Positions 14,153 to 41,050 of a stretch of DNA of 53,417 nt are shown one piece after another. This DNA comes from Dehalococcoidia bacterium (lineage in GTDB: Bacteria; Chloroflexota; Dehalococcoidia; UBA3495): positions 1 to 53,417 of the forward strand of contig JASMCQ010000113.1 in the NCBI GenBank assembly GCA_030753265.1. Reading direction: 5' to 3'. Under the pieces are notes generated by a model. The model was given only the letters and a program-made list of their open reading frames with translations. It made no database searches and had not been told where the DNA came from. How positions within the stretch are numbered: position 1 is the first letter of the stretch; each line of letters starts with the position of its first letter. The translations under genes were made by a program, and so were the position numbers.

Positions 14153-15260
14153 ATGGAACAACTCAAGCTGAACCTGCAAACCGTTTGTAAGAAGATAGAT
14201 TCCGTGGTGGAGCGTCTTTGACCTCGCTGACAAAGAAATTGCGATTGCCCGCATGGAGCTGGAATCGGCCACTCCCGGCTTTTGGGACGACCCCCGGGAA
14301 GCCCAACGGAAAATGCAGCAGTTGGGCCGCCTCAAAGACGCGGTGACCCTTTGGCGAGGCCTTCAAACGGGCTCCAAGAACCTACTGGAGTTGACCGAAC
14401 TGGCCCTGGCGGAGGAGGACTATTCCCTACAGGAAGAGTTGGAGGCCGAGGCCCGCACGATCACCCGGTCCTTGGCCCGGGAAGAGGTCAACCTGACCTT
14501 GTCCGGACCCTTCGACGACCGGCCGGCTATCGTCACCATCCACGCCGGAGCCGGGGGCACCGACTCTCAGGACTGGGCAGAGATGCTGCTGCGCATGTAC
14601 GCCAAATGGGCGGAAATACAGGGCCGCCCGGTTCAGATAATGGACCTCTCCTACGGAGATGAAGCCGGCCTCCGCAACGCCACCCTGGAAGTCGGAGGCC
14701 CTCACGCCTTCGGCTACGCGAGCGCCGAGCGGGGCGTCCACCGGCTGGTCCGCCTGTCGCCCTATGACCCTAACCACTTGCGGCACACCTCTTTCGCCGT
14801 GGTGGAGGTTATTCCGGTCTCAGACGAAGAAGCCGAAGTGACGGTGCGGTCCGAAGACCTGAAGTTGGACTTCTTCCGGGCCAGTGGCCCCGGGGGGCAG
14901 AACGTGCAGAAAGTGGCTTCCGCGGTACGCTTGACCCACGTCCCATCAGGCATCGTCATTAGCTGCCAGAACGAGCGGTCCCAGCATCAGAACCGGGAAT
15001 TTGCCCTGCGCATCCTGAGGGCCAAACTCCTGGCCCGGCAGAACGAGCAGCGGGCCGAGGAGCTAGCGAAACTCCGGGGCCAGAGGGTAAGCCCGGAATG
15101 GGGAAACCAGATTCGCAGCTACGTGCTGCATCCGTACAAGTCGGTGAAAGACCACCGGACCAACCACCAGAGCACCAACCCGGATGCGGTGCTCGCCGGA
15201 AACGTGGATGAGTTCATCCAGGCCTATCTCATGTCCAAGGTCGGAAAAGAGACAGGCTAG
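14153..15260 (+). CDS. prfB: Peptide chain release factor 2, made by programmed +1 frameshift
   Basis: RF2 recognises UGA and UAA stop codons and triggers release. Translation starts at ATG 14153 (AGGAGAG upstream) and meets an in-frame TGA at codon 23 (14219-14221). The context is CTT-TGA-C, preceded at the right distance by an SD-like GTGGAG, the classical RF2 autoregulatory frameshift site. After a +1 shift, reading resumes with GAC at 14220 and continues to 15260, giving 368 residues. The release motif GGQ is at residues 247-249 (SGPGGQNVQ). The tripeptide that reads the stop codon, SPF in E. coli RF2, appears as SPY (LSPYDPNHLRHTSF). Low RF2 activity raises frameshifting, so expression is self-controlled. 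The presence of UGA-decoding selenocysteine genes nearby makes RF2 levels relevant to them. Confidence 0.96.
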
Positions 15261-21867: not shown

Positions 21868-22077
21868 CTAGTGGAAGGGGCAAACGAACTTAAGGGTACT
21901 GACCAGAGAGGTGTGGTCCTGCCCTTCGCCGGCTCCGTCTTCGGCCAGCGAAGCGGCGGAACCGCCCTCGCCAAGGGCCTCGCCGTTCACCGCCTGGTTA
22001 ACGGCGCCGGCTAAGGTTAGGATCATTGACACCGCCAGGACCCCGATGACCAGGATGGCCATCAGCTTGGGTTTCAT
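21868..22077 (-). CDS. Small exported or membrane-anchored protein, unknown function
   Basis: A 69-residue open frame starts MKPKLMAILVIGVLAVSMIL, a clean positively charged N-terminus plus hydrophobic helix, followed by a Gly/Glu/Ala-rich soluble tail. The ATG at 22077 has GGAGGG ten bases upstream. It reads towards the sigma factor gene 128 nt away and might share its transcript. I do not recognise a domain. The signal-like start and ribosome site are the reasons for calling it real. Confidence 0.5.
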   Translation of the reverse strand: MKPKLMAILVIGVLAVSMILTLAGAVNQAVNGEALGEGGSAASLAEDGAGEGQDHTSLVSTLKFVCPFH

Positions 22078-22336
22078 AGCCGCTGGGCCCTCCGTGAAAA
22101 GCGAGATATTGCGCGGATCGACACCAGCTTATTCTATAGCTTTCGCCGATGGATTGCCAGTCGGCCCGTTTTCGACATTATCTGGACCCGGAAGCCGAAT
22201 ACACGCCTACTTTGGCCAGTTCAGCCCCGACATCTGCTTATCCGACCGCTCAAACGCCGACAGGTCTGCTATACTGCAACCGCCAACTCCTTGGAGCGAC
22301 CTCGGCCGGTATGAGGCGCGCATTGGACCCGCCCCG

Positions 22337-23074
22337 ATGGACCTAGACAGGAATCGGCGCGCCCGCCGCTTTTTCGACGGGATCGCCCAGCGGTACGACC
22401 TGCTCTCCGAGTTGTTGTCCTTCTTTCAGTTCGGCCGGTGGCGGCGATTCCTGGTCTCCCGTTTGAGCGTTCGCTCCGGTGACACGGTACTGGACCTCTG
22501 CACCGGGACCGCCACGGTGGCGGACCGGATGGCAAGGACCCTTGACGTGAAGGTCGTGGGTGTGGACCTGAGCGCCGAGATGCTCCAGGGAGCCCGGCGA
22601 AGAATCTCCAGCCGGCGGCTCGACGGAAGAGTGTCTCTGCTCATGGGCCGGGCGGAGAACCTGGCCTTTACCGACGGGTGTTTCGACGCGGTGTGCTTCA
22701 CCTATTTGCTGCGCTATGTGGACGACCCGGCTGCCACCCTTGAAGAGATAGTCAGGGTCCTCAAACCCGGCGGATGCCTGATTTCCCTGGAGTTCGGTAT
22801 GCCCACCAACGTATTGGCGCGGGGCCTCTGGCATGCCTATGCCAAGGCGGCACTTCCCATGGCGACCAGGTTCCTGTCCCCGGGATGGCGGGATCTGGGA
22901 ACGTTCCTTGGCCCCAACATTGAGGCATTTTGCCGGTCTTACCCCCTGGAACACCTCCTGCAGATGTGGTGGGATCTGGACATATCAGACCTCCGGATCA
23001 AGCGCTTGTCCCTGGGCGGAGGTGTGGTCATGTGGGGCACCAAGAGCGCTGAGGGGACCCAGCGCAAAGTTTGA
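22337..23074 (+). CDS. UbiE/MenG-family class I SAM-dependent methyltransferase
   Basis: This 245-residue protein is close to the UbiE/COQ5 family, which C-methylates the ring of ubiquinone or menaquinone precursors. It opens with the family signature RRFFDGIAQRYDLLSELLSF and WRR. The SAM-binding motif I is VLDLCTGTATVA, the acidic end of strand 2 is VGVDLSAEM, and post-I/motif II are AENLAFTDGCFDAVCFTYLL. The family's C-terminal signature GGGVVMWGTK is kept. The ATG at 22337 gives the expected N-terminus; the frame is open further upstream without a plausible start. Its menaquinone role is likely if the cell respires with menaquinone, but other substrates are possible. It is divergent from the small exported protein. 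Confidence 0.85.
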   Translation: MDLDRNRRARRFFDGIAQRYDLLSELLSFFQFGRWRRFLVSRLSVRSGDTVLDLCTGTATVADRMARTLDVKVVGVDLSAEMLQGARRRISSRRLDGRVSLLMGRAENLAFTDGCFDAVCFTYLLRYVDDPAATLEEIVRVLKPGGCLISLEFGMPTNVLARGLWHAYAKAALPMATRFLSPGWRDLGTFLGPNIEAFCRSYPLEHLLQMWWDLDISDLRIKRLSLGGGVVMWGTKSAEGTQRKV

Positions 23075-23751: not shown

Positions 23752-25140
23752 ATGCAATTTCGCCACCTGCCCAGCGTGGACAAGGTCATGGGCATCGACA
23801 CGGTGCTGGCCATGGCGACGGCCTACAACCGGGAGTGGGTAGTCGATCTGGTTCGCCGGCAGTTGGACGAGGCCAGGCAGCGGATCCGCCAGGGAGGAGA
23901 AGCCCCAACTCCGGCAGAACTGGCCGAGGCGGTCTGCCACGAGATCGAATCGGTGGCCCAAGCCGAGCCGCGCCACGTAATCAACGCCACCGGGGTCGTA
24001 ATCCACACCAACCTGGGGCGTGCCCCCCTGAGCCAAGCTGCCACCGACGCAATGCTGCGGGCCGCCCGGGGATACTCCAACCTGGAGCTAGACCTGGAAA
24101 GCGGACGGCGCGGCTCCCGGCAGGCCCACCTGCAGTCCTTGCTTCGCCAGTTGACCGGCGCGGAGGCGGCGCTTGCGGTTAACAACAACGCCTCGGCAGT
24201 GCTGCTGGGGCTGACTGCCCTGGCCGCTGGAAACAAAGAGGGAAGGAAAGAAGGAAAAGAGGTAATAGTCTCCCGTGGCGAATCGGTCGAAATCGGCGGC
24301 GGCTTCAGGATACCGGACGTACTGCGCCAAAGTGGCGGCACCCTCGTGGACGTCGGCACCACCAACCGGACTTATGCCCGGGACTACGAGGACGCCATCA
24401 CGGATAACACCGCGGCCCTGCTCAAGGTCCACTCCAGTAATTTCCGGGTCGAAGGATTTACGGAGACAGTGGAGCCCGAAGAGTTGGTGGAGCTGGGGCA
24501 GCGGTACGGGGTCCCCGTCCTGCACGACGTGGGCAGCGGCTGTCTTCTGCCCACGGAGCGCTACGGCCTGGCCCATGAGCCGACACCCCAGGAGAGTATT
24601 GCCGCCGGGGTCGGCCTGGTCCTTTTCTCCGGGGACAAGCTGTTGGGGGGCCCCCAGTCCGGGATAGTGGTGGGAAGACGGGATCAGGTGGAGTTGCTGG
24701 CCCGGCACCCGCTGGCCCGGGCAATCCGAATCGACAAGTTCAGCCTGGCTGCCTTGACCGCCACCCTGCTCCACTATTTGAAAGGGGAAGCCCTAACGGA
24801 CATACCTATCTGGAGGATGATTGCCACTCCTGAGGAGGCCGTCCGGGACCGGGCGAACCTCTGGGAAAAGCAACTGGGAAAGGGCGCCGGTGTGGAACCG
24901 GCCCGCTCGGCAATCGGCGGAGGCAGCTTGCCCGGTGAGACCCTGCCTTCGTGGGTGCTGACGGTATCCTGCGAGGATGTCCCCGGCGGGCCCGAGGAAG
25001 TGATGGGAAGACTGCGCCGGGCCGACCCGCCAGTGGTGGCCCGCATCGAGGAAAATAGGGTGCTTCTCGACCCTCGGACGGTGCTCCCCGAGGAGGATGA
25101 ACCTCTGCTGAGGGCGGTGCGCGGGGCGCTGGGTCGATAG
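23752..25140 (+). CDS. selA: L-seryl-tRNA(Sec) selenium transferase (selenocysteine synthase)
   Basis: SelA converts seryl-tRNA(Sec) to selenocysteinyl-tRNA(Sec) with selenophosphate. The 462-residue protein starts with the family signature FRHLPSVDKVM and has HVINATGVVIHTNLGRAPLS, the glycine-rich YSNLELDLESGRRGSR, and the Schiff-base lysine K296 in LFSGDKLLGGPQ (E. coli K295). Length matches bacterial SelA. A short Lys/Glu-rich insertion (NKEGRKEGKEV) near residue 160 is unusual. AAGGA sits just before the ATG. No selB, selC or selD is in the window, so they must be elsewhere. Its presence about 2.5 kb from the double-TGA MerB-like gene supports UGA decoding as selenocysteine in this organism. 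Confidence 0.96.
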   Translation: MQFRHLPSVDKVMGIDTVLAMATAYNREWVVDLVRRQLDEARQRIRQGGEAPTPAELAEAVCHEIESVAQAEPRHVINATGVVIHTNLGRAPLSQAATDAMLRAARGYSNLELDLESGRRGSRQAHLQSLLRQLTGAEAALAVNNNASAVLLGLTALAAGNKEGRKEGKEVIVSRGESVEIGGGFRIPDVLRQSGGTLVDVGTTNRTYARDYEDAITDNTAALLKVHSSNFRVEGFTETVEPEELVELGQRYGVPVLHDVGSGCLLPTERYGLAHEPTPQESIAAGVGLVLFSGDKLLGGPQSGIVVGRRDQVELLARHPLARAIRIDKFSLAALTATLLHYLKGEALTDIPIWRMIATPEEAVRDRANLWEKQLGKGAGVEPARSAIGGGSLPGETLPSWVLTVSCEDVPGGPEEVMGRLRRADPPVVARIEENRVLLDPRTVLPEEDEPLLRAVRGALGR

Positions 25141-26161: not shown

Positions 26162-27646
26162 TTACCGGGCCAGCTTGGCGGCGTTCCTGCCCGCTATGCG
26201 TCCGAAGACGGAACCCAACATGAGGCCGGCCCCGGTGGAGAAAGCCCGGTAGAAGATTCCGCCGATGGCTTCCCCCGTGGCGTAAAGGCCAGGGATAGCC
26301 TGTCGGCCGGAGTCCAAGACCCGGGCCTCCCCGTCCACCGCAATACCTCCGTGGGTGAAGACGATGCTGGTGGAGACGCGGTAGGCCACGAATGGCGGGC
26401 GCTCCAGCCGCAGTGCCCAGTTTGACTTGGGTGGCTTCAGACCACGGGTGCCCTTGCCGTCCTTGATGGTGGTGTCGAAGGTCCCCTCCTGCACCGCCTG
26501 GTTGTACCGGGTGACGGTATCCGACAGGGCATCGGAGTCTACCCCCAGGCTGCGAGCAAGCTCCTCCATGGTGCCGGCGGTCACGGAAGGGCTCCCGGAG
26601 TGGTACCGCTCCTTGTCCAGCATTTGAACGGTCTGCTGGTCGAAGAGTTGATAGGCTAGGCCCCCGGGCTGAGACCAGACGGCGTTCCCCAGGGCTACAC
26701 CCCCGGTGTGATGGAACTCGGCCCCTTCGTCCACGAAACGCCGCCCCTCGGCGTTGACCATGATGCCGAGCCTCTCAGAGGAGCGGGCACTCAGGTTGCC
26801 CGCCTTTACCTCGCCAAAGGGCGCTGAGGCTATGTCCACCGACCCGCAGTCCGAGGCGGACCAGGCGCCGCTGCTGCCTGCGCCAATCTCTCGGGCCCGG
26901 TCCAGGAGTTCGCCGGTGTTATGCCGGGTGCCCCGCACCTTCATGAAGTCCCACCCTTTTCCCAGGTAGCGGGCGCGCATCTCCGGGTTGGCCTCGAAGC
27001 CGCCGCTCCCCAGCACCACGCCCCCGGCCTCCAGCGCCTGAACGCCGTCCTCGGAACGGACCCGCACTCCACAGACTCCGTCCCGGTCATCAGTAACCAG
27101 CCCGGTGACCGCGGTACCGTAGGCGATGTCGACACCCCGTCCCTCGGCAATGTGGAAGAGCTGTTGCATTAACCCGAGACCCGCTCCCCAGGTCTGAAGC
27201 TCGTTGCCGGGCAGGAAGATGGTGCGGCCGCTCCGGCGCGGCGCCCGCTGGTACAGCTCGAAGTGCACTCCCAGACTTTGCATCCACCGAAGGGTGTCGT
27301 AGGACTGGTCCGCCAGCACCCGGCACAGTTCAGGGTCGGCGCGCTCTTCTGAAATCCGCATCAGGTTTTCGTAGTAGGTGTCGGCGGTGTAGGGTCCCAT
27401 GTCCAGGCGTTCTGCCTCGACCGGGGTGAGTTCCGGCACCAGGGGCATCACGTCCTCCAATCCCTGGTGTGCGAACTCGAACAACCCGCCGCTGAAGGCG
27501 CTGTTTCCGCCCCGCTCCTCGTAAGGCGCCTTTTCAAGCACCAGGACCCGCGCCCCCTCTTCCCGGGCCGCCAAGGCCGCGCACATTGCGGCGTTCCCCG
27601 CCCCCACTACGATGACGTCGAAGCGATTCTCGCCCCTTATGGCCAT
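26162..27646 (-). CDS. FAD-dependent dehydrogenase, fumarate reductase/TcuA-like
   Basis: This 494-residue flavoprotein belongs to the FAD-binding-2 family (succinate dehydrogenase, fumarate reductase, 3-ketosteroid dehydrogenase, tricarballylate dehydrogenase TcuA). The N-terminal dinucleotide fold is VIVVGAGNAAMCAALAAREE with LVLEKAPYEERGGNSAFSGG binding FAD. The capping domain spans about residues 240-360, and the C-terminal FAD segment is IPGLYATGEAIGGIF then STGAGLMLGSVFGR. It most resembles TcuA-like enzymes; substrate unknown. AGGAGG at 27651-27656 sets ATG 27646, 12 nt after the stop (TAG) of the MerB-like selenoprotein gene. The pair is therefore an operon and the flavoprotein may deliver or accept electrons or process the same substrate; this is inference from context. 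Confidence 0.85.
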   Translation of the reverse strand: MAIRGENRFDVIVVGAGNAAMCAALAAREEGARVLVLEKAPYEERGGNSAFSGGLFEFAHQGLEDVMPLVPELTPVEAERLDMGPYTADTYYENLMRISEERADPELCRVLADQSYDTLRWMQSLGVHFELYQRAPRRSGRTIFLPGNELQTWGAGLGLMQQLFHIAEGRGVDIAYGTAVTGLVTDDRDGVCGVRVRSEDGVQALEAGGVVLGSGGFEANPEMRARYLGKGWDFMKVRGTRHNTGELLDRAREIGAGSSGAWSASDCGSVDIASAPFGEVKAGNLSARSSERLGIMVNAEGRRFVDEGAEFHHTGGVALGNAVWSQPGGLAYQLFDQQTVQMLDKERYHSGSPSVTAGTMEELARSLGVDSDALSDTVTRYNQAVQEGTFDTTIKDGKGTRGLKPPKSNWALRLERPPFVAYRVSTSIVFTHGGIAVDGEARVLDSGRQAIPGLYATGEAIGGIFYRAFSTGAGLMLGSVFGRIAGRNAAKLAR

Positions 27647-27658
27647 GATGCCTCCTGC

Positions 27659-28303
27659 CTATAACTCCCCAGCGGCGCGGCGCGACATATAATTTGTGGC
27701 GCCCCGAGCGCGGTGCCTCTCCGCGCTGAACCGCTCCACCCAATAGGCCAGCGGTTGAAGGGTCTCTTCGAAGGCGGGGTCGAACCCGGACCAGCTACGG
27801 GCATGCTCTTCCGACCGGAAGAGGTTCATGCCGGCTCAACGAGTGGGGCGGGTATCCGGTGATCCCCCCACCTCGCCGTTGGTGTATCCCACTATCCCTT
27901 CCGGGCTGGCGGAAAGCACCTGCTCATCCCGCATCTCGATGGTGATGGGATCACCGCAATCCAGGCACGGGGCATCGATTCGGACCGTCTTTCCGGGGAA
28001 CAGCCAGCGGACCGCCAGCGCCTCGAACCCTCATTGGGCGAACCATTTCTGCTGGCCGTCCACGGTGATACGGTACTGGGTTGGCATGTTGTTGAACGGC
28101 GCCACGGATACGATGTAGTCGGTCCCCGGGTGCAGCCACGCGGGGATCCCGGTGGCTATCAGGTCGCGGAGCACTTGGCGTCCTTCTTCAACCGGGAGGC
28201 CCAGGCTTGCCGCCAGTTCCGTGTAGTGAGGCGCAAGGCCCGTCTCAACGAAGCGCCTCATGATACCGTGGTGAGCCCTGTCAAGCATCGCGAGATCCGT
28301 CAT
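27659..28303 (-). CDS. MerB-like (alkylmercury lyase family) protein with two predicted selenocysteines
   Basis: Read conventionally this gene stops after 90 residues. With TGA at codon 91 (28031-28033) and codon 156 (27836-27838) read as selenocysteine (U), the frame runs to TAG at 27659 and gives 214 residues, the length of MerB (212). The N-terminal winged-helix part is followed by YRITVDGQQKWFAQ-U-GFEALA, matching MerB's ...YAWCALDTL around catalytic Cys96. APCLDCG covers MerB Cys117. TR-U-AGMNLFRSEEHARSW matches FC-CHVHFFAS around catalytic Cys159. MerB's Asp99 is Glu here. AAGGAGG at 28309-28315 lies five bases before ATG 28303. Hairpins with GU-containing loops follow both TGAs. MerB cleaves carbon-mercury bonds with two cysteines and an acid; the substrate of this homologue is unknown. 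The alternative, a twice-interrupted pseudogene, fits the intact flanks poorly. Confidence 0.85.
27800..27832 (-). promoter_or_regulatory. Bacterial SECIS-like hairpin after the second TGA (codon 156)
   Basis: On the minus strand, 3 nt after the TGA, GGCATG pairs perfectly with CATGCC (6 bp). An AAC bulge follows, then CTCTTCC pairs perfectly with GGAAGAG (7 bp), capped by a GGTC loop. The loop G and U lie 21 and 22 nt after the TGA, nearly the same distance as the SelB-binding GU in E. coli fdhF, whose loop also contains GGUC. Confidence 0.78.
28003..28019 (-). promoter_or_regulatory. Bacterial SECIS-like hairpin after the first TGA (codon 91)
   Basis: GCTGGCG and CGCTGGC form a 7-bp stem (two G-U pairs) with a GTC loop, 18 nt after the TGA. 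Weaker than the hairpin at the second TGA, but with GU in the apical loop at the spacing required for SelB. Confidence 0.55.
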
Positions 28304-28491
28304 AGTTACCTCCTTTGCTCCGGAAGCAAATAGGTTCTGTTGACATAATCCTTAGCGCACGCCGTTTCCCCCAACCGCCCACGAAGACTCTTGGAAGACA
28401 GTCCGCACCGTGACAATGGGCCCGGCCCCGCAGACCACGGCTTGCGCTGACGTGATTCACTCGTCATTAGAGCGCCGAGGCAGGTGGAAAT

Positions 28492-37789: not shown

Positions 37790-40700
37790 TTGAGTACGGC
37801 TCCTCTGGCGGAGATTGAGAAGGAACTCGCCAAGCTCCCCCCGGCAGTCTTGGAAGCTTGCAATGATGCCACGCCTTCGCTCGAATCGGCTTTCGGCGGA
37901 GAAGAGTTAACCCTGTGGGCCAAGGAAGGACTGTCTATCGGGCTCCAGACGGTCCGCTCCTGGGAATCCGCGGTCGAGTACTACCGGGCCAGCCCAGAGG
38001 TGGCCCGTTTCCTCTCGTTCCCCTCTTTCATGCAGTGGGCCCGGTGCGGCACCTATTTGGCCCAAGACTCCCCCACCCTGGCGGTCGCCTTCTTCCGCGC
38101 CAGCTCGTCCATCGTGCCCAACCTGCGGCCTCAGTACATTCCTCGCTGGGCTGGGCTGGGCCGAAGCCTGTATAAGGGCACCTGGAAGTCCAGCACCCTG
38201 GCCGCCAAGTTCTTCGAGGTCAGCCCGGACTTGATCCGTAGCCTGCCCTTCTGGGACGTGGAGGTGTTCGCTTCCCTCATCGAAGCCCTCTCCTACAAGT
38301 CCTACGACGTGGCCGGAGAATGTCTGCTTCTGGGCCGGGATGTCCTGCCCGCCATGGGGCGGGAGCGGGAGCCCTTCCTGTCCATGTCACGCGCCTTGAT
38401 CGACAGTAGCTGGCGGGAGGTCAAGACCTGCCTGGAGATGGTGCCCCGCGCCTTACAGCAGGTCGACGAGGGCCAGACGGGCCGCTTCCTCAAGCTTGGG
38501 GAGCGGCTGGCCAAGGTGGGAATGCGGGACACCTCTCGCTTCCTGGCGGACGGCACCTTGGCCTTGAGCCGCGTCCCTCAAGGGTCCCAGGGCTATGTCC
38601 TGGACCTGTGCGAGACGCTGCTGGCGGTTTCTCCCGACGCGGTCCCTCCCTTCCTGAAGAGCTTGACCGACGTCCTGGACCGCATCACGGTCAACCAACT
38701 CGACAGCTGGTTCCAACGCGGCGTCGGGCTGCTGAAGGAGAACCCGGAGAGCGGCATCGCCTTCTTCAAGATAGAGTCCAACACCTCTGAAGCCTTGCTG
38801 GAAACCCTGTCCTCAAGCCTGGAGCTAGAGCGGGTTAAAGGCATTATCCGCCTGTACTGCCGGGCCCTCTCCGGCTCCGCGGTGGAGATATTCAACACCC
38901 ACGAGCTGGTCAGCAAGAACATCGGTTGGGTGGATGAAGACTCGGCTTCAACCGACGGTACCAAAGTGTTCTTGCCGCCGGTGGTGGACCACTACGCTGA
39001 CAAGCAGGAGAACTTCTCCTGGTTTAAAGTGGTCTCTACCCACCAGGTGGGCCACTTGGAGTTCGGTAGTTTCCTCTTCGATTTCGATTCCCCGGCCACC
39101 CAGTTTACCGACCGTCGCTTCGATCTGGAATCCGGGACGAAGGAGCTGCCGGCGGCCCCGGGGCAGGCGGAGGGCGAAGCCGAAGCCGAAGCCGAAGCGA
39201 CTGATCCCCTCACCTCCATCGGGCGCTTTTTGCACCTGTTCGAGAACCGGCGCCTGGCCTTCGACATTTTTACGGTGCTGGAGGACTGTCGCCTGGATTA
39301 CCGCATCAGCGTGGAATACCCCGGCATCCGGAAGTCGGCCGGCAAGGTCCAGTCCGAGGCGTTGGCCACCCGCCCCAAGATACAGGAAATGGCCCTCCAA
39401 GAGGCCATGGTGGAGCTACTGGTTCACATGAGCCTGGAGCAGTTCACCGGCCTGCCCGTGCCCAAAGAGTACGAAGACGCCGCGATCATGCTGTCCCGCA
39501 TCCTGCACCAACTGCGGACGGCCCTGGCAACGGTGGAAGACACCGGGGAGGCCACCCTTCGGGCCTACGAGATTATCTCCCGCATTCAGAACGAGACCCA
39601 GCCGGAAGACCAGTGGGAGGAGCAGGACCTGGAAGAGCCGGGCGATTTCTCCGAGGAAGACCTCCAGGCCCTCTTGGACCAGCTTCAAGCCGGCATGGAA
39701 GCCTCCGGGGAAGGCGGCGAAAGCCAGGACTATGAATCGTCGGAGCCGGTGGACTACCGAGGCGAATTCAAGCCTGAAATGGTCCAACTCCTGGCCAGAC
39801 TGCAGATGGACCCGAACCAGCAGGGTGAGAGCCAGCCTATCTCCCAGGAGATGCTGGAGCAACTGCTGCAGCAGAGTGCCGAGCTGGAGCTGGATGCCGA
39901 GCAGGGCGATATCGACTCCAGCATGACTATGTTCGCCCAGAACCTGATGAAAGAAGCCGGCACCCCTCCGCCCGATTCCAAGCCCGGACAGGGCTACGGC
40001 CCCCTGCTGCACGATGACGACCAGGGCGGCGAGCTGGAGCCCAAGGAACCCCAGACCTACGCCTATGACGAGTGGGATTTCCGGGCCGCCGACTACAAAC
40101 CCAGGTGGTGCATCGTCAAGGAGAAACTCGTAGAAGAAGGAGACTCGAACTTCTACAACGACTCCTTGAAAAATTACATGACCCTCTCGCACCACATCAA
40201 ACGCCAGTTCGAGTTGATAATGCCGGAGAGCTTCCGGAAGATCTACCGGCTGACCGATGGCGAGGACCTCGACCTGAACGCCGCCCTCGAGGCATGGGCC
40301 GACCTGCGAATGAAATTGCCTCCCGATGAAAAGATCTACTGGCAGCGCAACCGGGCGCGCCGAGACGTGGCCGTGGTGTTCCTGCTGGACATGAGCGCCT
40401 CCACCGCCGAGGCCATCGACGAAGGACGCCAGACCGTGGACGACCGGGACGCCCCGGACGACCCGGTTGAATACATGGTCTGGCTTCGCCGCCGCCGGGA
40501 AGGGCTGGTTCGCCGCAACTACAAACGCATCATCGATCTGGAGAAAGAGAGCACGGCCCTGCTGATCAACGCGCTGGAGTCCATCGGCGACACCTATGGA
40601 ATCTACGGCTTCTCCGGCTACGGCCGAGAGAACGTCGAGTTCTACGTCATCAAAGACATCAATGAGAGTTTCGGAGAAAAGATCAAGCGCCGGCTCGATA

Positions 40701-41050
40701 AGGTTACGCCCCTGCACGCGACTCGCATGGGGGCCGCCATCCGCCACGCCACCAGCAAGCTGGAGCACCAGGACGCCACCACCAAGATCATGTTCTTGAT
40801 CAGCGACGGGCGTCCCCAGGACCGGGGCTACAGCCGGGAAGGCGTGGAGAAAGAGTACGCGGTCCACGACACCCACATGGCCCTGATCGAGGCCAGGCGC
40901 AAGCAGATCGTCCCCTTCTGCCTCACGGTGGACAAGGCCGGGCATGACTATCTAAAGAGCATGTGCGGCGACATGGGGTACGAGGTGCTCGGCGATATCT
41001 GGGCCTTGCCCGAACGGCTGCCGATGCTCTACCGGAAGCTCACCTCGTAA
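37790..41050 (+). CDS. Giant VWA-domain protein, CbbO/NorD-like partner of MoxR ATPase
   Basis: This 1086-residue protein has an N-terminal helical region (residues ~1-400) of repeated ~35-residue units (for example SPEVARFLSFPSFMQWARCG and SPTLAVAFFRASSSIVPNLR). A middle acidic region follows (EGEAEAEAEATD near 465; PEDQWEEQDLEEPGDFSEED near 605). The C-terminal VWA domain has the MIDAS motif DMSAS (VVFLLDMSASTAEAID), the Thr in LHATRMGAAIRHA and ISDGRPQD. This is the architecture of CbbO/NorD. It starts with TTG at 37790, one base after the Nudix stop, with AAGGGGG upstream. It probably forms a metal-dependent bridge between the MoxR ATPase and a client protein; the client is unknown. Confidence 0.88.
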   Translation: MSTAPLAEIEKELAKLPPAVLEACNDATPSLESAFGGEELTLWAKEGLSIGLQTVRSWESAVEYYRASPEVARFLSFPSFMQWARCGTYLAQDSPTLAVAFFRASSSIVPNLRPQYIPRWAGLGRSLYKGTWKSSTLAAKFFEVSPDLIRSLPFWDVEVFASLIEALSYKSYDVAGECLLLGRDVLPAMGREREPFLSMSRALIDSSWREVKTCLEMVPRALQQVDEGQTGRFLKLGERLAKVGMRDTSRFLADGTLALSRVPQGSQGYVLDLCETLLAVSPDAVPPFLKSLTDVLDRITVNQLDSWFQRGVGLLKENPESGIAFFKIESNTSEALLETLSSSLELERVKGIIRLYCRALSGSAVEIFNTHELVSKNIGWVDEDSASTDGTKVFLPPVVDHYADKQENFSWFKVVSTHQVGHLEFGSFLFDFDSPATQFTDRRFDLESGTKELPAAPGQAEGEAEAEAEATDPLTSIGRFLHLFENRRLAFDIFTVLEDCRLDYRISVEYPGIRKSAGKVQSEALATRPKIQEMALQEAMVELLVHMSLEQFTGLPVPKEYEDAAIMLSRILHQLRTALATVEDTGEATLRAYEIISRIQNETQPEDQWEEQDLEEPGDFSEEDLQALLDQLQAGMEASGEGGESQDYESSEPVDYRGEFKPEMVQLLARLQMDPNQQGESQPISQEMLEQLLQQSAELELDAEQGDIDSSMTMFAQNLMKEAGTPPPDSKPGQGYGPLLHDDDQGGELEPKEPQTYAYDEWDFRAADYKPRWCIVKEKLVEEGDSNFYNDSLKNYMTLSHHIKRQFELIMPESFRKIYRLTDGEDLDLNAALEAWADLRMKLPPDEKIYWQRNRARRDVAVVFLLDMSASTAEAIDEGRQTVDDRDAPDDPVEYMVWLRRRREGLVRRNYKRIIDLEKESTALLINALESIGDTYGIYGFSGYGRENVEFYVIKDINESFGEKIKRRLDKVTPLHATRMGAAIRHATSKLEHQDATTKIMFLISDGRPQDRGYSREGVEKEYAVHDTHMALIEARRKQIVPFCLTVDKAGHDYLKSMCGDMGYEVLGDIWALPERLPMLYRKLTS

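Follow-up and report, generated by a model that had tools for sequence, protein, structure and literature searches.

The window, the whole stretch of 53,417 nt that we analysed, carries on its minus strand (27659..28303) a predicted MerB-family gene with two selenocysteine (Sec) codons. Direct reading from ATG 28303 to TAG 27661-27659 confirmed the single frame of the original prediction: 214 codons, with in-frame TGA only at codon 91 (28031..28033, minus strand) and codon 156 (27836..27838, minus strand), giving 214 residues when UGA is read as Sec. The good ribosome-binding site described earlier is AAAGGAGG (28309..28316, minus strand), 5 nt upstream of the ATG. The plain ORF list of the window holds only a 90-aa stretch of the gene (28303-28031), ending at codon 90, exactly the fragment expected from ordinary gene callers.

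The gene is flanked by groEL and by a gene for a TcuA-like FAD-dependent dehydrogenase (26162-27646), whose ATG lies 12 nt downstream. In tblastn comparisons with 129 loci (E <= 1e-20), this dehydrogenase had matches in L006 and L008 only, again directly downstream (67-68% identity); GroEL, SelA and an alpha/beta hydrolase from the window had no match. Elsewhere, the window contains a UbiE-like methyltransferase gene (21911-23074), 0.7 kb before selA, with a 145-residue N-terminal part lacking any Pfam match, and a 1086-codon frame (37790-41050) with no Pfam match at 1e-6. A viral-contig scan of the window found nothing, and neither tRNA genes nor Rfam matches were detected in its 53 kb.

The read-through protein matches PF03243 at 68.8 bits (gathering score 27; E 5.7e-19) over residues 72-186, which bears out the proposed MerB homology. 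Alignment to PDB sequences pairs residue 91 with MerB Cys96, Glu94 with Asp99, Cys113 with Cys117 and residue 156 with Cys159, in the MerB numbering used in PMC8261052. Both TGA codons thus fall at the equivalents of the catalytic cysteines, and Cys117 is kept, as had been claimed; the catalytic Asp99 cited in the same claim has an aligned position (94), but Asp is replaced there by Glu, a change that had escaped notice. A structure model (pLDDT 95.2) returned MerB in all of its best eight VIA rows and in each of the 11 matches that Foldseek gave with E <= 0.001; as modelled, the protein has the MerB fold of the PF03243 superfamily. Scores against the MerB equivalogs are far under their cut-offs (NF009710, 43.5 versus 193 bits; NF033555, 32.7 versus 200 bits), and the Cys96/Cys159/Asp99 triad of the equivalog is represented in the window by UGA, UGA and Glu.

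A protein search yielded 590 relatives, of which the best 120 were analysed together with the query. Eighty-two of these sequences have no more than 165 residues, and 55 exactly 155, lengths that fit a UGA at codon 156 combined with Cys at codon 91. Among the 39 longer proteins of this set, four (P0004, P0031, P0058 and P0067) contain Cys at both sites and 33 contain Trp at both. At the DNA level, we compared the best 80 of 212 confirmed species-genome loci with the window (81 sequences). TGA occupies codon 156 in all 81; at codon 91 it occurs in 53 sequences, the other 28 having TGC or TGT, so that both catalytic positions hold only a Sec codon or Cys, in agreement with the homologue check proposed originally. 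A further in-frame stop occurs in a single sequence (L048, one stop). The residues beyond both TGAs are conserved. Position 94 is Glu in 79 sequences and Asp in two, leaving a potential proton donor in 81/81; position 113 is Cys in 80/81, and an added Cys116 is present in 68/81. Because the TGA codons are conserved in the 81 sequences, chance is excluded.

Record titles of the relatives name Chloroflexi, SAR202, Dehalococcoidia, Deltaproteobacteria, Syntrophaceae, Desulfobacterales, Acidimicrobiia, Nitrospinae and others. Among genomes drawn around gene-bearing ones, 9/148 gave matches at E <= 1e-3, five of them with a close member, and two more such sets gave matches in 10/296 and 17/297 at E <= 1e-20, the three sets including some matches that the loci had already supplied. 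Close members contain one or two internal TGA codons; the sole TGA-free match at E <= 1e-20 spans residues 5-81 only. The 148-genome set otherwise gave distant matches (E 3e-27 or weaker), some with TGA and some without. Eleven Acidimicrobiia-type loci of the Cys/UGA form (L036, L038, L039, L047, L048, L054, L059, L062, L065, L067 and L075) carry an extension of about 150 residues at the C terminus, with Gly instead of Cys116; that of L036 gave no Pfam match at 0.01.

A frame broken by two stop codons could be a pseudogene or the product of a sequencing error, and the Trp residues at both sites in 33 of the 39 longer proteins suggest that UGA was translated there as Trp. We consider this group of explanations hardly credible, because the same two codons recur across phyla, relatives have Cys at the same places, and dN/dS is low past both UGAs. 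For residues 2-90, 92-155 and 157-210, in this order, close pairs with UGA at both codons (U/U) gave ratios of 0.06, 0.11 and 0.11 (L004/L005), 0.10, 0.10 and 0.06 (L006/L008), 0.07, 0.03 and 0.03 (L019/L021), 0.09, 0.14 and 0.08 (L042/L052), and 0.09, 0.31 and 0.16 (L045/L049). These values show that the five pairs are under purifying selection, also past both UGAs, and not near a ratio of 1 after codon 91, the outcome that had been named as favouring a pseudogene. The divergent pairs L058/L075 and L047/L058 gave ratios of 0.76-1.06 at dN 0.48-0.89, which we take as saturated or composition-biased. The window also contains prfB, for peptide chain release factor 2 (14253..15260, plus strand; TIGR00020, 437.3 bits, cut-off 370), and selA (23752..25140, plus strand; TIGR00474, 549 bits, cut-off 267.9). 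Release factor 2 speaks against UGA being a sense codon throughout and for its use as a stop in the source organism. We thus ruled out a pseudogene by dN/dS in the close pairs, and UGA as Trp because the window has prfB and selA and relatives have Cys.

Each UGA is followed by a hairpin. Hairpin 1, after UGA91, is GCUGGC-GGUCC-GCUGGC (28003..28019, minus strand), a pattern of the form GCUGGC-N5-GCUGGC whose self-pairing includes two G-U pairs; hairpin 2, after UGA156, is CUCUUCC-GGUC-GGAAGAG (27806..27823, minus strand). Their spacing is 17 and 19 nt and their MFE -9.1 and -19.0, respectively, with G first in both loops. The rules for bSECIS elements in the accessible part of PMC13188914 are a spacing of 16-37 nt, a G early in a loop of 3-9 nt and an MFE <= -7.5, and both window hairpins fit them. 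No shuffled sequence (0/200) folds as well as hairpin 2; for hairpin 1, 166/200 do, and with no excess of stability its case is one of conservation.

That conservation was examined in 105 sequences, the 81 above and 24 further ones, comprising 73 genes with UGA at codon 91 (U91) and 32 with Cys (C91). All six pairs of hairpin 1 occur in 71/73 U91 genes versus 15/32 C91 genes (Fisher p 4e-9, kinship ignored), and GU occurs in its loop in 73/73 versus 8/32 (Fisher p 3e-17, kinship ignored); hairpin 1 decays where codon 91 is Cys. As a consequence of the conserved pattern, residue 98 is Val in 73/73 U91 genes and becomes variable once codon 91 encodes Cys. At other codons (5-189) of the 53 U/U genes, the geometry of hairpin 1 is complete in at most 7.5%. 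The 7-bp stem of hairpin 2 is complete in 93/105 sequences and one pair short in 12/105, with a loop of GGUC (101/105) or GUUC (4/105). Codons 161 (CTC), 162 (TTC) and 164 (TCG) are invariant across the 81 sequences, in which synonymous-codon identity averages 0.77-0.82 over residues 157-172 versus 0.37-0.57 in other parts.

Across the family, the bare 6-bp hairpin 1 reaches a median MFE of only -6.5, and of -4.0 among C91 genes; for the bare hairpin 2, 88/105 sequences attain -7.5. A generic scan for SECIS-like hairpins at each codon did not discriminate (median percentiles 0.32 for U91, 0.24 for U156 and 0.42 for C91), because these GC-rich genes fold hairpins in many places, and it was replaced by the conserved-register test. 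When hairpin 1 was tested against U91 with correction for phylogeny, the pairs were too few and the result was not significant: of five starred independent pairs, about two changed in the same direction, none in the opposite one and three showed no difference.

Absence of the Sec machinery had been named as an outcome that would speak for a pseudogene. We found selA in the window and SelB in relatives, but no selB by tblastn within 53 kb, a window size that says little about the genome. SelB scored above its cut-off in 47/50 genomes of the loci, and in 22/23 further gene-bearing genomes versus 35/57 non-bearing ones (p 0.002), which amounts to 69/73 gene-bearing relatives overall. A tRNA-Sec was above the cut-off in 27/31 genomes, 24 of them at >= 57 bits; matches near the cut-off are not specific, since in a control 5/14 named genomes passed, more than the two with SelB. 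Known features of bacterial selenoproteins are therefore found together here: UGA where relatives have Cys (28/81 at codon 91; P0004, P0031, P0058 and P0067 at codon 156), a bSECIS-type hairpin after each UGA, and Sec machinery in the form of the window's selA and the relatives' SelB. These findings support the proposal that both catalytic thiols are replaced by selenols, Sec being predicted from sequence.

The observation of UGA codons at both catalytic-Cys positions is thus confirmed, and the original interpretation is supported: in the proposed double-selenocysteine organomercurial-lyase homologue, the MerB homology, UGAs, hairpins, Cys homologues and Sec machinery stood, and we infer organomercury as the substrate. 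We predict a Sec/Sec enzyme of the MerB fold that probably breaks C-Hg bonds or very similar bonds between carbon and a metal, a reading to which we assign a probability of roughly 0.6. SelB and Sec-tRNA would decode each UGA, each aided by its own hairpin, a step for which the hairpins, selA and SelB in relatives are in evidence. MerB, the textbook methylmercury-degrading enzyme, holds the metal of R-Hg+ with two thiols. The selenols at 91 and 156 would hold it likewise, and Glu94, in the place of Asp99, would supply the proton that releases R-H. Since most gene-bearing genomes yielded no MerA, the selenol-bound Hg(II) would then need transfer to cellular thiols or some other acceptor.

The mercury-gene context of the family is sparse. 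MerA, MerR and MerT queries had no tblastn match in the window. Close to family members, merA turned up in G218 alone, at a distance of about 3 kb, and the only other match to the MerA query around the 80 loci was one of 30-32%, in L073; MerA was above its cut-off in 14/73 gene-bearing genomes. No common operon partner emerged from ORF clustering (80 loci) or tblastn (129 loci, E <= 1e-20), some loci being short and the ORF caller used in clustering picking false antisense ORFs in GC-rich DNA. Genome G057, by its gene order arsR-merB-merA-merT-like (L175 5901-9028; G057:C211), places a MerB with UGA at the Cys159 position in a mercury cluster. This MerB has Cys at the Cys96 position, a GGUC-loop hairpin after its UGA, and scores above the Pfam cut-off and below the NCBIfam ones; the adjoining MerA reaches 609 bits (cut-off 454), and the MerT-like protein is below cut-offs. 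In G218, a two-UGA MerB is fused to an AAA ATPase domain (L126 10035-11588; G218:C1; P0122), and a MerR-like regulator and MerA lie about 3 kb from it.

For a lyase speak the PF03243 score and the MerB-only structural matches, catalytic sites that are Sec or Cys only, with Cys/Cys relatives in existence, the two in-register hairpins, of which the first decays at C91, the SelB enrichment in gene-bearing genomes, the G057 cluster, and a second U/U branch (below) with Asp99. Against it stand Glu for Asp99, scores far below the NCBIfam MerB and SaoL cut-offs, the missing mer genes of the window with merA near members only in G218 and MerA in 14/73 genomes, the shuffle-like stability of hairpin 1 with the undiscriminating generic scan and non-significant tree-corrected test, and the question of how Hg would leave two selenols.

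Some of these points could also fit a genuine two-Sec MerB-fold protein that acts on another organometal(loid) (tin, lead or arsenic) or on a purely organic electrophile. The missing mer neighbours and the MerA count are in line with such a substrate, as are Glu at the Asp99 place, the added Cys116, the presence of as many as three members of the family in a single genome (G015), the Cys-type MerB relatives without stops that G218, G126 and others also hold, and the naming of the related SaoL as an organometallic lyase of unknown substrate. We regard it as rather unlikely, given that the metal-binding positions are strictly Sec or Cys and that a UGA-containing MerB adjoins merA in G057. Binding of Hg by Se is very strong, and a pair of selenols might also act as a trap, binding RHg+ or Hg(II) almost irreversibly and protecting stoichiometrically rather than by turnover, which would agree with the lack of a MerA acceptor in most genomes. 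A trap seems improbable to us in view of the Glu or Asp proton donor in 81/81 sequences, as expected of a catalyst, and of the whole MerB fold kept in the model.

Returning to the predicted diselenol lyase, we built a tree from 107 proteins of the MerB family, in which the window family forms one branch (100/99) of 85 rows, 53 U/U, 28 C/U and 4 C/C, with the types intermixed; U91/C91 needs seven changes on the 81-row tree. A second U/U branch (L134, L135, L167, L168 and L169; 100/100) falls together with SaoL and rows of ordinary MerB; the exact place of this branch is unsure given a long-branch warning from the tree program. Its hairpin 1 is GCCCUU-CGUGC-AAGGGC in 5/5, and its hairpin 2 has a GGUC loop with a C-G or U-A closing pair. 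A MarR-family gene precedes the second-branch gene in L181 and L182, and four genomes (G044, G050, G537 and G566) carry members of both branches. At least two separate MerB branches with two-Sec active sites may represent widespread, mer-operon-independent diselenol organomercurial lyases of uncultured bacteria (SAR202-type Chloroflexota, Deltaproteobacteria and Acidimicrobiia), missed by surveys of mercury-demethylation genes; we advance this tentatively, at slightly less than even odds. If true, the truncated look of the genes and their lack of Cys159 explain why surveys miss such lyases, and environmental merB counts are too low. The accessible text of PMC11308531, a deep-ocean survey, describes screening MerB for Tyr93 and Cys159, places at which the window protein has Phe88 and UGA, so that such screens would miss proteins of its type. 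ORF calls would add to the undercount, ending at codon 90 in the window and near 155 in many relatives (best 120 of 590). A predicted large natural Sec/Sec family would also let the role of Se-Hg in C-Hg cleavage be probed through Sec/Sec, Cys/Sec and Cys/Cys members.

The original prediction was aware of no described MerB with two selenocysteines, and we found none described in the mostly open literature within reach of our search. Selenoproteins resembling MerB have a precedent in SaoL, with one Sec (PMC13188914); it is for the two-Sec form that this search brought up no description. In the accessible parts of these sources, PMC13188914 names MerB twice in its main text, both times in the row for SaoL, PMC9312934 lists an 'Alkylmercury lyase MerB-like protein', and PMC2398784 has no MerB. 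PMC10418091 cites the paper on SaoL (Haft and Gwadz 2023). For MerB, the available text of PMC8261052 gives Cys96, Asp99 and Cys159 as strictly conserved and describes genomes in which MerB occurs by itself.

Among its predicted selenoproteins, the accessible text of PMC7435645 includes 'Organic mercuric lyase MerB2', likewise a MerB relative called a selenoprotein, presented there without detail of sequence, Sec number or position. SaoL (NF040728) resembles the window protein as a MerB relative with UGA at the Cys159 equivalent and, in the accessible Table 1 of PMC13188914, has one Sec in a CU motif; a SaoL from G614 (175.7 bits, cut-off 140) is Cys/UGA. It differs in having Cys at the Cys96 position and Asp99, and the window protein, at 41.4 versus 140 bits, lies elsewhere in the tree. 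The second two-UGA branch shares with the window family UGA at both catalytic positions, a hairpin after each and the GGUC second loop, and differs in its retained Asp99, its hairpin 1 and its grouping in the tree. Compared with MerB itself (PF03243; NF009710, NF033555; PDB 3f0o, 3f2f, 5c17), the window protein has UGA for both catalytic Cys codons, Glu for Asp99, an extra PCLDCG pair and no mer operon.
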